From Bacteroidota bacterium (GTDB taxonomy: Bacteria; Bacteroidota; Ignavibacteria; Tepidaquicellales; Tepidaquicellaceae): a stretch of DNA of 64,000 bases. Position 1 is the first letter of the stretch. Each line of letters starts with the position of its first letter. Below the pieces are notes generated by a model. It made no database searches. It worked only from the letters and a program-made list of their open reading frames with translations, and was not told the DNA's origin. The DNA lies in assembly GCA_018266845.1 (NCBI GenBank), contig JAFDZO010000002.1, positions 62,001 through 126,000 of the forward strand. The letters are read 5' to 3'. Position numbers and translations under genes: made by a program. This document shows positions 3,177 to 53,332 of the stretch, one piece after another.

Positions 3177-4502
3177 ATGGATTCGAAAACAGAAACAAGG
3201 AGCAGGGCTTCAGCATCTTCTAATGGAAGCAATTCCATAACAGACACAAAATCTAAAAATGTTACCGATTTAAAGTCGAAAAAAGTTGCTGAACTTATTG
3301 AAATTGCTAAAGGGCTTGGAGTAGCAGGTTATAGCGACCTGAAAAAGCAGGAACTGATATTTAAAATTATTGAAGCGCAGACAAAGAATGACGGCTTTGC
3401 ATATGCTGTAGGTGTTCTTGAGGTATTGCCGGACGGATACGGATTTTTACGCTCTGTTGACTACAACTATCTGCCTTCACCTGATGATATTTACGTTTCA
3501 CCCTCACAAATAAAGAAATTTTTACTCAGAACCGGAGATACGGTAAGCGGACAGGTACGCCCGCCTAAAGAAGGCGAAAGATTTTTCGCTTTGCTAAAAG
3601 TAGAAGCAGTAAACTTTGAAAGCCCTGATACAATAAGGGACAGAATACTTTTTGATAACCTCACACCATTATATCCTAATGAGAAAATAAATCTGGAAAC
3701 AACTCCCGGCGAGTACGGAATGAGAATAATGGATTTATTTACTCCTATCGGAAAAGGTCAGAGAGGTCTTATAGTATCACCGCCGAAAAGCGGTAAAACA
3801 ATTTTACTTCAGACAATTGCTAACAGCATAACAAAGAACCATCCTGAAGTTCATTTAATCGTATTGCTTATTGATGAAAGACCTGAAGAAGTAACGGATA
3901 TGGAGCGCCATGTTAAGGCAGAGGTAATAAGCTCCACATTCGATGAACCACCGGAAAGACACGTTCAGGTTTCAGAAATAGTTCTTCAAAAAGCAAAAAG
4001 ACTTATCGAAGCTAAAAAAGATGTTGTAATACTTCTTGATAGTATTACCCGTCTTGCAAGAGCTCATAACACAGTAATTCCGCATAGCGGAAAAATTCTC
4101 TCCGGCGGTGTTGATGCCAACGCATTGCACAAGCCGAAAAGATTCTTCGGCGCTGCCAGAAACATTGATGAGGGCGGCAGCTTAACAATCATTGCTACTG
4201 CTTTGATAGAAACCGGCAGCAGAATGGACGAAGTTATCTTTGAAGAATTTAAAGGCACGGGTAATATGGAAATTGTATTGGATAGAAGATTATCCGATAG
4301 AAGAGTATTCCCGGCAATTGATTTAAACAAATCCGGCACAAGAAAAGAAGAGCTTCTTATGGCTCCTGATGTGCTTACAAGGGTATGGCTGCTCAGAAAG
4401 TTATTATCTGAGTATAACCCGGTTGAAGCAATGGAATTCCTTCTCGAAAAAATGAGGGGAACAAAATCAAATAAAGAGTTCCTTGCTTCAATGAATTCGT
4501 AA
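3177..4502 (+). CDS. rho: Transcription termination factor Rho
   Basis: 441 residues. After a Ser/Lys-rich extension of about 30 residues comes the Rho N-terminal helical domain (about 31-70), then the cold-shock-like primary RNA-binding domain with [15 protein letters not shown] (79-93). The ATPase core carries Walker [10 protein letters not shown] (about 200-208) and Walker [17 protein letters not shown]. The hexameric helicase loads on untranslated RNA and ends transcription. The extension is modest compared with the long inserts of some Bacteroidota Rho proteins. The gene is preceded by about 180 nt of AT-rich non-coding sequence. Confidence 0.98.
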
Positions 4503-6758: not shown

Positions 6759-6771
6759 TAAATAATAATTC

Positions 6772-6866
6772 TTCCCTTGAGGGGAGTACTCCTCAAAGCG
6801 GAGGGTGGGGTGTTTGAGAGAACACCCACCGTCTCGCCTTTGGCGAGCCACCTCCCTCAAGGGAGG
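6772..6866. repeat. Dispersed repeat R1 with palindromic ends
   Basis: About 95 bp. The left end is the palindromic TTCCCTTGAGGGGAG region and the right end is CCTCCCTCAAGGGAGG. Between them are a direct pair of hairpin arms (GGGTGTTT...GAACACCC-like) and GTCTCGCCTTTGGCGAG. Its reverse complement matches the element at 28197-28296 over nearly the whole length and a diverged one at 28501-28595. It lies 6 bp from the stop codon of the large outer-membrane gene. ORFs across it are chance. Confidence 0.8.
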
Positions 6867-6872
6867 AATTTT

Positions 6873-9800
6873 TTAGAAGAACGCCCTTATCTCCGCTCTG
6901 CCGGTGTGAACTGCTTTTCTGCTGCCCTCTATTCTTCCGTCATAGTTAAGAGATGCCTGAATGTTTTTGCTGATGCTGTAATCGAATATTCCTCTCCAGA
7001 AATAACTCTTTCCTTCTACTTTTCCATTCGTTAATTCAAACGGAATTGTTGCAAGCGGGTTTGAAAGTCTTACCTCATCACGTTCAAGCTCAAGTCTCAC
7101 CCTCCCAAGTGTAGCGAAAGAATAAATCATTCTTAAAATTTGCTGGTTAATATCGGCTTTGTTAGAAGGCGCGGGATATGTGTCATCTGCCCGGGTAAAA
7201 TTTAACGTGAAGCCGCTTTCAATCTGCTGAACAGGTCTGTAAGAAAAATCAAAATTTATTCCGTCCGAATCTATGTTCCTGTTCCTTACCGATGCAACGG
7301 GAGCAATGTTTCTGTCGGTTTTATTCAGATACTCTATGTTGGTAGTAACATCTTTTGTAAGCCCCACTTTAAGCTTTGCAGAGCGCTGTATGCTAAGCGA
7401 GCGTTCATTCCCGCTGGTGTATTGCGTGAACCCCTTTTGCTGAATATATCTTAACCGCAGTGAATATTCAGGATTGAACTCAAAAAAATTAACATCCTGC
7501 TGGAACACCTGCGAGCCGGCAAGTGTATTGCTGTCGTTAAGAAAAGTGCCTGTATGGAGAAAATATAAATCAGAGGTATTAGGGTTTTTACTTTTTTCAT
7601 CAATCCGGTAATATGACTCAAGCGAAAGATTATTTATAACATCGCTTAAAAAATTATTGCTGTTTAAATACAAAAATCTCGAAGGCCTGATTAGAAGGCG
7701 CGCCGAAGTTTTTACATCTACAATAGGGAATAACTGGTCAGTCGGTAGATTTACTTTTATGTAATTACCGTCATTGTTTGTTGCAAGCTGGAATTCATTT
7801 TCATCCTGCAATCCGTTGCTGTTTAAATCTCCCAGATAGATATAGTTTCCCTGTCCTGTTTGCACAAGCACAAATAATTTTTCAATCTTAGCCGTTCTTT
7901 CACTGGATACATTATAAAGTAAATCTGTTTGTGCGCCGGAATTAAACGGGTCTATTCTCATAGTTGAATTTACAAGGATAGTCTGGTTATCAGAAAATCC
8001 TTTCTGAACATAGGCATCGGAATATTTTTTATCTCTAATGGAAATATCGAAAGCAGAGTTCAGCCATGAAAGCCCGTTGTATTTCAATCCATAAATCTGC
8101 GTGTAAGTTTTTGATTCATTCTGAAGAATGCCTAAATCGGTTAAGTCATCATTTCTGAAATTGAATTCGGCATACAATCCAAGATTATAAAAATTGCTTA
8201 GAGTAATTCTCGGCTTTACTTCATTGAATGCAAAGCTGCCGTACTTTACACTATCGCCGAAAATTTTTTGAAACACATCATTTCTGTTTTCTCCGTAGTA
8301 ACTCACTTTAAATTCAAACGCAGCGGGATTATCTTTCTGAATATGAAGCTCTTTTAAAAGACTTAAAGAAGCTTTTTGTTTTATCCACCGGCTTTTGGAG
8401 TTATCTGTAGTGTAATCGGAGTTTACTATATCAATATTGTATGATACTTCGGGAAGTTTTAATGAATCATTTTTGAAAACAAATCCCGCATTAGTTCTTA
8501 AAGCGTTAAAAAAATCCCCGCGTTTTAGCTGACCGAATAATCCGCCTATGGTAAGATTTTTTACAGGCTGAATTTTTAACGTTCCCTCACGCAAATCTTC
8601 CGTCGCATTAGAAGAATCCTGAATGTCGTAAGTTCTGATAAATTCCACGGAGTTTATTCTATCCAGTGAAGTGAAAGATTCATTCACATACCTTTCCCTG
8701 AAACTCAGCTCTAAACTATGAAAATTCATCCCGAATAAACCAACCTTCTCTTTTTTAAAGCCAATCTGACCTAGTATTGCAGCGCCTTTTGTATCTATCA
8801 ATGGGTCATTCGAAAATTTATTCCGGTTAAGTAATGAATATGCCGATTCCACATTTACATAAAATTCATTTTTAGGAGTGCTATAGGTCAGCTTTAAATC
8901 TCCCATCTGATAAGCAGTAGGAATTGGAATAAAAACTATCGGAGCATAGTTGCCCTGATTAGTCCCGACAAAAGTATATTCGTAAATTGTTTTTTTGATG
9001 TAATCACCTAATCCGCTGCCTACCAACGAAAACGCCACATTATAAACTGCGTTTGGGTTTCCGGGGGCGTACCTGTAAACTGTATCCCGCGCTTCGCCGA
9101 TAAGTGTATCCACCTGAATGTATAAACCTTTGCTGTTTCCCAATGAGTCAAGCCCAACATACGTTACACCTGACTTCACTGCTTTATTTTTATCAGCGCC
9201 TGCTTGCGAAAGTATCTGTCTATCAGTATCGGTTAAATCAAAATCTATTGTCTTCCCTTCATTATCATTTTCGTTTACGTAAGATGCCTTCAGTAAAATT
9301 CTGTCACTGAATAAACTCCACTGGTTTCTGCCTGAAATAAGCGCGCGCGAATATTTCCTGTCGGAGTACTCAAAGTCAACAGTTATTCTTGTTGCATTAG
9401 TAATAATTCTCCTGCTTGTGAAAGTTACTTCTCCGATACCATAGTCTATAGTATAGTCTGCCTGGTCGCCGCGTACCATTAAAATTCCGTCTATGTAAAC
9501 GCGTTCCGAGCCGGAAAGCACAAGTATATTTATCTCGTTTTCTTTACCGATGAGGCGGTAAGGTCCCTGCACTCCGTCGGAACCGTTGAATTTGTTTGTA
9601 TTAAACTTACCCCTGCTGATTGCACCCGTCAGCTGCGCATCGCCTATCCCGTAATCTAAGTATCCTTTTACACCCTGAATTTTTCTTGTGAAGTTTGCGA
9701 ATTCCGTATTGGTAAAGTTCACATTGATGTCGCCCAATGTACCCGTTACATTTTTGCTGCGAAGCTCAATAAATACTTTATCAAGCTCCTGCAATTTTTG

Positions 9801-52428: not shown

Positions 52429-53136
52429 ATGGCTTATAGCGAAAAACTGGCTTCACGTATTGAAAAAATTTTTAATACGGGAAAAGTAAAATTTGAAAGC
52501 AAAAAAATGATGGGCGGGTTATGCTACATGGTGAACAATAAAATGTGTTTAGGTGTGGAGAAGGATAGGATAATGGCGCGCGTCGGTCCTGAAAGCTATG
52601 ACGAGGCTATGAAGATAAAAGGAGCAAAGCCGATGGACTTTACCGGCAAAGTTATGCGTGGATTTGTTTTTGTTAATGAGAAATATCTCGAGAAAGAAAC
52701 TGATTTAAAAAAATGGGTTGCGCTGTGTCTAGAATACAATCCAAAGGCAAAAATTTCAAAAAAGAAAAAAATGGCATCTGAAAATATCTTAGATAAATTT
52801 GCTAAGATAATTCTTAAACGGGATAAGAAAGTAAAAAGCAGCAGCGGAAAAATTATGGGAACGGAAGGAACTGTTTTCAATGAAGAGGGAGTATTTAAAT
52901 ATGCTCTCGCTAAAACAAAGACGGGATATACTTTTCACTCGCTTGTAATTTATGCCTGCGCTCCTCTGCACGCAGATTTAAAATCAAAAATAAAGAGCGC
53001 AAAATTTCAAAAAGGATGCGTTAACTTTAAATCCGGGGAAGAATTCCCGCTCGATATATTCGATGAGCATATGAAAAAAGCATCGGAGTTTGATTTCTCC
53101 GGCATAATAAATCACTACAAGAGCAAAAAGAAGTAG
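52429..53136 (+). CDS. TfoX N-terminal-like domain fused to a DUF1801-like domain
   Basis: 235 residues without signal or span. Residues 1-105 look like TfoX-N (FESKKMMGGLCYMVNNKMCLGV, DRIMARVGPESYDEAM, DFTGKVMRGFVFVNEKYL). A lysine-rich linker leads to a second domain (about 115-235) resembling DUF1801/YdhG (FEKLAK... style AKIILKRDKK, then AKFQKGCVNFKSGEEFPLDI). TfoX-like modules are linked to competence and cell-cycle control, but stand-alone versions are uncharacterised. Domain assignments are by pattern only. Confidence 0.7.
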   Translation: MAYSEKLASRIEKIFNTGKVKFESKKMMGGLCYMVNNKMCLGVEKDRIMARVGPESYDEAMKIKGAKPMDFTGKVMRGFVFVNEKYLEKETDLKKWVALCLEYNPKAKISKKKKMASENILDKFAKIILKRDKKVKSSSGKIMGTEGTVFNEEGVFKYALAKTKTGYTFHSLVIYACAPLHADLKSKIKSAKFQKGCVNFKSGEEFPLDIFDEHMKKASEFDFSGIINHYKSKKK

Positions 53137-53146
53137 CGCGAGATTG

Positions 53147-53255
53147 GGGGGCGGCGCCTTCCGCTTGAAAAGCGGAAGGCGCATACAGGGAAAGAATTGA
53201 ATTCTTCAATTCTTTCCCTGTGCGCAGCCCGGCTGCCGCCGGGCGCGCCGCCCCC
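53147..53255. ncRNA. GC-rich multi-hairpin element, possible structured RNA or mobile palindrome
   Basis: Outer stem GGGGGCGGCGC (53147-53157) with GCGCCGCCCCC (53245-53255). Inside: hairpin 1, 13-bp stem 53154-53166/53170-53182 (arm CTTCCGCTT); hairpin 2, 17-bp stem 53185-53201/53205-53221 (arm ACAGGGAAAGAATTGAA), loop TTC; hairpin 3, GCCCGGC/GCCGGGC (53227-53233/53238-53244). Outer stem and hairpin 1 share four bases, so they compete. It is far more GC-rich than the genome around it and occupies most of the 196-bp gap before the dioxygenase gene. Confidence 0.55.
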
Positions 53256-53332
53256 AGTGCGCCCTCAAAAAAAACTCCCCCCTCGATTTTTGTTGCTATT
53301 AATTAAAGGTAATAATTTCTATTTTTATCTTT

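Follow-up and report, generated by a model that had tools for sequence, protein, structure and literature searches.

Between the genes for a TfoX_N-domain protein and tryptophan 2,3-dioxygenase, the 64,000-nucleotide stretch of DNA analysed here (the window) carries one member of a family of palindromic intergenic elements that is confined, among the genomes searched, to two genomes of one genus. What the copies of this family share is a shape, a four-way cloverleaf made of an outer stem and three hairpins (HP1, HP2 and HP3) that meet at a junction where almost every base is paired. Our preferred reading, to which we give a probability of roughly 0.6, is that the element is a genus-specific, non-autonomous, dispersed DNA repeat that is conserved in shape, in which template-switch correction, selection for the DNA fold, or the two together keep the arms complementary. 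The family is a clear example from nature of dispersed copies that have conserved a DNA fold and not a sequence. It also provides a system for measuring the co-evolution of palindrome arms, that is, template-switch correction against selection, and for tracking down an enzyme able to recognise a four-way junction.

Architecture and copies of the cloverleaf

The window element has a 109-base core at 53147-53255 and extends over 53146..53257 when delimited by the covariance model R2; no strand is assigned to it or to its parts. The 5' arm of the outer stem, GGGGGCGGCGC (53147-53157), is the perfect complement of the 3' arm, GCGCCGCCCCC (53245-53255), and forms with it an 11-bp stem that is conserved in the family. 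Enclosed are HP1, GCGCCTTCCGCTT-GAA-AAGCGGAAGGCGC (53154-53182, 13 bp, loop GAA), HP2, ACAGGGAAAGAATTGAA-TTC-TTCAATTCTTTCCCTGT (53185-53221, 17 bp, loop TTC), and HP3, GCCCGGC-TGCC-GCCGGGC (53227-53244, 7 bp, loop TGCC). An earlier sequence-only reading had described an 11-bp outer stem around perfect hairpins of 13, 17 and 7 bp with four bases shared between the outer stem and HP1, and direct inspection of the sequence bears out both points. The shared bases are 53154-53157, and the lower 4 bp of HP1 compete with the outer stem. The same reading saw in this overlap two alternative folds, as in switches or cruciform mobile elements. The overlap arises because GGCGC is repeated around the four-way junction, which can therefore migrate; bases common to both stems for this reason need not imply a switch.

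The predicted RNA fold of the element reaches -96 kcal/mol (z -10.7) and the DNA fold of its minus strand gives z -11.1, with 0 of 200 shuffles matching in either case. No other perfect hairpin in the window, whose GC content averages 37%, is as long as HP2 or HP1, and a cloverleaf descriptor matches the window exactly once and 2 Mb of Markov-shuffled sequence not at all. Model R2 scores the two strands almost equally (68.8 vs 67.8 bits), so that orientation is not fixed by score; a conserved orientation at the kynA site, considered at one stage, was dropped on this ground.

How many such elements are there? BLAST of the element against its own genome (G000) recovers one partial relative, G000:C35, with an identical fold and different stems. 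HP2 of the window element is the long, sequence-variable arm of the cloverleaf; its tip, AATTGAATTCTTCAATT, is common to other copies and occurs exactly 4 times in the genome, every time inside a cloverleaf. Covariance models were built from five copies (R1) and then from 24 (R2), and the copy counts rest on searches with these short-calibrated models, whose E-values are rough. In G000 they give 14 copies that are intact, two that have decayed (C19, C1) and one that has collapsed to a single hairpin (C22:43240); G001, the one further genome of the genus examined, has 14. A covariance-model search for further structure-conserved copies, as the sequence-only reading had proposed, thus returned about 30 across the two genomes.

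Beyond the genus, 27 other genomes of the family contain no covariance-model match at E <= 0.01; wider searches of 391 genomes from the class and 395 from the phylum, run with stricter filters that may have let weak relatives escape, yielded nothing more than a different repeat (in G117). A sequence-independent descriptor applied to 200 kb from each of three other genera gave no convincing cloverleaf and one AT-rich chance match, and the same search in 200 kb of G001 recovered one known copy. An exact pattern matched genome contigs at 44 places, none of them a cloverleaf, and two patterns matched nothing in viral contigs. The weak model match in G117 was rejected as a different repeat with TGTCATTCTGA ends, and those in G032 and G034 as hairpins beside a tRNA. 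The G117 repeat (L078, 1501-1603) has the ends TGTCATTCTGA/TCAGAATGACA, contains GTCCCGAC...GTCGGGAC and adopts another three-hairpin fold; in G032 and G034 (L027, L024), which belong to another family of the same order, three hairpins directly adjoin a tRNA gene.

Every intact copy has this four-way cloverleaf in near-perfect form, and elements are about 101-122 bp long. In a common orientation, the outer stem is about 8-13 bp and begins GGGGCGC, HP1 is 7-10 bp and usually GTCCCGAY-nnn-RTCGGGAC, HP2 is mostly 19-22 bp with a tip that is usually AATTGA/TCAATT, and HP3 is mostly 7-9 bp and often CGAACC-nnn-GGTTCG; loops are mostly 3-4 nt and the junction usually has 0-2 unpaired bases. The HP1-type hairpin GTCCCGNYNNNRNCGGGAC is all but confined to these elements in the two genomes: of its 17 occurrences, 16 fall within listed elements (8/8 in G001, 8/9 in G000). 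The stem sequences are otherwise almost wholly different between copies, above all in HP2, where mid-arm identity over all pairs averages 0.535 vs 0.521 after shuffling. Copies with 84-91% identity in the frame have HP2 mid-arms that are 57-79% identical, and shuffled arms give 52 +/- 11%. Judged from its sequence, HP2 looks like a length-constrained, largely sequence-free arm. HP2 arms were also compared with sampled G000/G001 DNA, in case they had been copied from elsewhere in the genome; this gave 30 additional 12-mer matches vs 15 expected and pointed to no clear source. In three copies (L135, L145, L151) a CG/GA or CG/AA 2x2 internal loop recurs in HP2, 3-4 bp above the junction, and could mark one strand.

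Proposed dispersal between intergenic sites

Non-orthologous copies align over the element only, with no match in the flanks, at 74-82% over 105-113 bp (L128/L131, 82% over 105 bp; L135/L151, 79% over 108 bp; L125/L145, 74% over 113 bp). Of 30 elements, only one lies inside an open reading frame of >150 aa; that frame is 218 aa long and possibly spurious. By contrast, open reading frames cover ~85% of the flanking DNA. At several of the G000 sites compared with G001 (C41, C11, C19, C1 and kynU) both flanking genes are neighbours in G001 and no element lies between them there; the alignments of such sites show gaps and no base-exact empty site, the intergenic flanks being too diverged. Two sites, kynA and C22b, keep the element across species, with flanks at about 73-81% DNA identity, and at both the stems have been rewritten between the species with pairing still intact. 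A further pair, C42/g1_C5, was rejected as orthologous, the element being inverted relative to the shared gene, and was counted as the same gap only. Target-site duplications are absent from 25 of 27 copies, which resembles random pairings, and neither a target motif nor a common tag in the flanks of the 27 copies was found.

Could these elements instead be sites that benefit the host? Under this explanation, a DNA-structure site that binds a protein as a junction or cruciform, with a role in nucleoid organisation, supercoiling relief or replication, would be selected at ~15 places per genome and would not now be mobile. Fixed geometry with free sequence, pairing by Watson-Crick pairs only and the presence of ~15 copies in each of two species all agree with it, as do the two positions retained since the species diverged. 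However, most tested sites are not common to both species, similar copies with sharp ends stand at non-homologous loci, decayed and collapsed copies exist, and the rest of the family lives without the element. We therefore regard a host-beneficial site as unlikely.

For a dispersed repeat of this kind, the following sequence of events can be proposed. In single strands during replication, or by extrusion under supercoiling, the element would fold into a Holliday-junction-like cruciform with three closed arms, and a putative recombinase or transposase acting in trans would read the fold and disperse the element to new intergenic sites. The enzyme would also read a few sequence cues, namely the GTCCCG-type HP1, the AATTGA tip of HP2, the CGAACC-type HP3 and the GGGGCGC ends, with the HP2 arms serving as a spacer of fixed length and free sequence. 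Diverging arms would stay complementary through intrastrand template switching, which copies mismatches out, and/or through selection on the DNA fold, which eliminates them. A more extreme form of this proposal, possible but held with low confidence, is an element addressed by shape, in which the recombinase would act on a perfect four-way junction in DNA while ignoring most of its sequence. HP2 would change faster than the other parts of the element, possibly whenever the element is mobilised, and would come out every time as a near-perfect palindrome of unchanged length.

A search for Y1 transposases (PF01797) revealed no mobilising enzyme. They are absent from G001, represented in G000 by a single fragment (profile positions 52-121) and present in most other genera of the family, a distribution that argues against mobilisation of the RAYT/IS200 type today. 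SbcD (TIGR00619) gave no match above cut-off in 29 family genomes, whereas 12 of 14 control genomes match. The missing SbcD may make palindromes tolerable; since it is missing family-wide, loss of SbcCD was rejected as the reason for restriction to one genus and is permissive at most.

Several known systems resemble the element in part. Integron attC sites are recognised as folded single-stranded DNA and conserve structure while their sequence varies. The likeness would be one of principle, as the copies here are solitary and dispersed, with no cassette arrays, and have a four-way junction in place of attC's one bulged hairpin. Like bacterial MITEs, the elements are small, dispersed and without coding capacity, and the outer stem of about 8-13 bp supplies terminal inverted repeats in nearly every intact copy; unlike classical MITEs, they show no target-site duplication, conserve fold rather than sequence and contain three internal near-perfect hairpins. 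REP/REPIN sequences with their RAYT (TnpA-REP) are short, intergenic, palindromic, dispersed and non-autonomous, and paired units can fold into larger hairpins (PMC3733652, PMC3116915). These are the points of likeness, and the earlier suggestion of a REP-like mobile palindrome stands in kind, given the many structure-conserved copies. It does not stand in detail: REPs are 20-40 bp with a GTAG or CGTC tag at the hairpin foot, whereas the element is a 101-122-bp four-helix cloverleaf, several times REP size, with no such tag, with sequence-free arms and with no Y1/RAYT gene in G001.

Pairing at the DNA or the RNA level

The arms of the cloverleaf covary strongly, with a score of 0.590 vs 0.183 after shuffling and at most 0.168 after sliding. 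Double changes occur at 39 of 46 pairs (260 double-change cells), and 1371 Watson-Crick pairs stand against five isolated G.T and six isolated A.C imperfections. Selection on RNA is expected to retain G.U over A.C. Here G.T and A.C are equally rare, and there is therefore no sign of selection at the RNA level. These sequence comparisons lead us to conclude that the arms are kept paired as DNA. One arm may be copied onto the other, the DNA fold may be under selection, or both; the controls do not separate the two processes.

The sequence-only reading had also offered a structured RNA, and a cis-acting or small RNA (a 3'-UTR stabiliser, an RNase III site or an sRNA) would agree with the strong predicted RNA fold and with the several copies that lie 1-30 nt past a stop codon. 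This explanation is nevertheless quite improbable, because the imperfections lack the G.U preference expected for RNA, both strands fold and score alike, copies are present in divergent gaps too, and Rfam at gathering and relaxed thresholds returned no credible match, the best (BTH_s1) reaching 28.6 bits vs a cut-off of 74. Strong covariation alone is thus no proof of a functional RNA; here it comes with no G.U component and with two strands that fold. An intrinsic transcription terminator or an insulator between genes is very unlikely: GC-rich hairpins do follow stop codons and some copies lie between convergent genes, but at the window copy no T-run follows the stems and no terminator-like site is called, in divergent gaps there would be nothing for a copy to terminate, and termination does not need a four-way junction.

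Template switching is documented as a cause of arm homogenisation (PMC8794818, PMC8604942, PMC7202029) and can yield perfect arms and multi-base compensatory change (PMC8794818, PMC8604942). Perfect inverted repeats with arms kept perfectly complementary are found in nematomorph mitochondrial genes; unlike the element here, they lie within coding genes of a eukaryotic organelle and do not form a cloverleaf family (PMC6649704).

Neighbouring genes and other repeats

The element follows the stop codon of the upstream gene for the TfoX_N-domain protein (52429..53136, + strand, assigned by domain match) by 10 bp and, as had been noted, precedes kynA (tryptophan 2,3-dioxygenase, PF03301; 53333..54430, + strand), which starts 77 bp downstream and is taken to lie outside the element. 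That the element is a leader or operator of kynA or of the kynurenine pathway, as the sequence-only reading had suggested for kynA, is highly improbable. In its favour, both species retain a copy upstream of kynA, and in G000 a copy precedes a kynurenine-monooxygenase-like gene by 103 nt and the collapsed copy precedes kynureninase by 88 nt. Against it, the remaining neighbours of the ~30 copies are mostly unrelated to the pathway, copies occur in either orientation and in gaps of tandem, convergent and divergent kind, no element is detected near the G001 orthologues of the monooxygenase-like gene and kynureninase, and the association was spotted post hoc. Given the site conserved in the sister species and the two kynurenine-type genes in G000, a local effect of the element at kynA is conceivable.

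In G000 an element or a remnant precedes each of three kynurenine-type genes by 75-105 nt. A rough count makes such an overlap improbable as a chance event, but the overlap was spotted post hoc and fails in the sister species. Besides kynA, they are the monooxygenase-like gene (L131:2605-3957, - strand; element at 4060-4168) and kynureninase (TIGR01814; L138:4176-5438, + strand; remnant at 4041-4088). Other palindromic repeats were noticed as well. A second family, CTCCCTTGAGGGAGGTGGCTCGC...GCGAGACGGYGGGTGTTC (fold z -6.8), occupies 6760-6880 of the window and recurs in L132 just beyond 4140, and L271 (G000:C12 near 34415) carries GTAG-tagged, REP-like GTAGAGACGCAATACATTGCGTCTC repeats together with a solo GTCCCGATaaaATCGGGAC hairpin within another palindrome.
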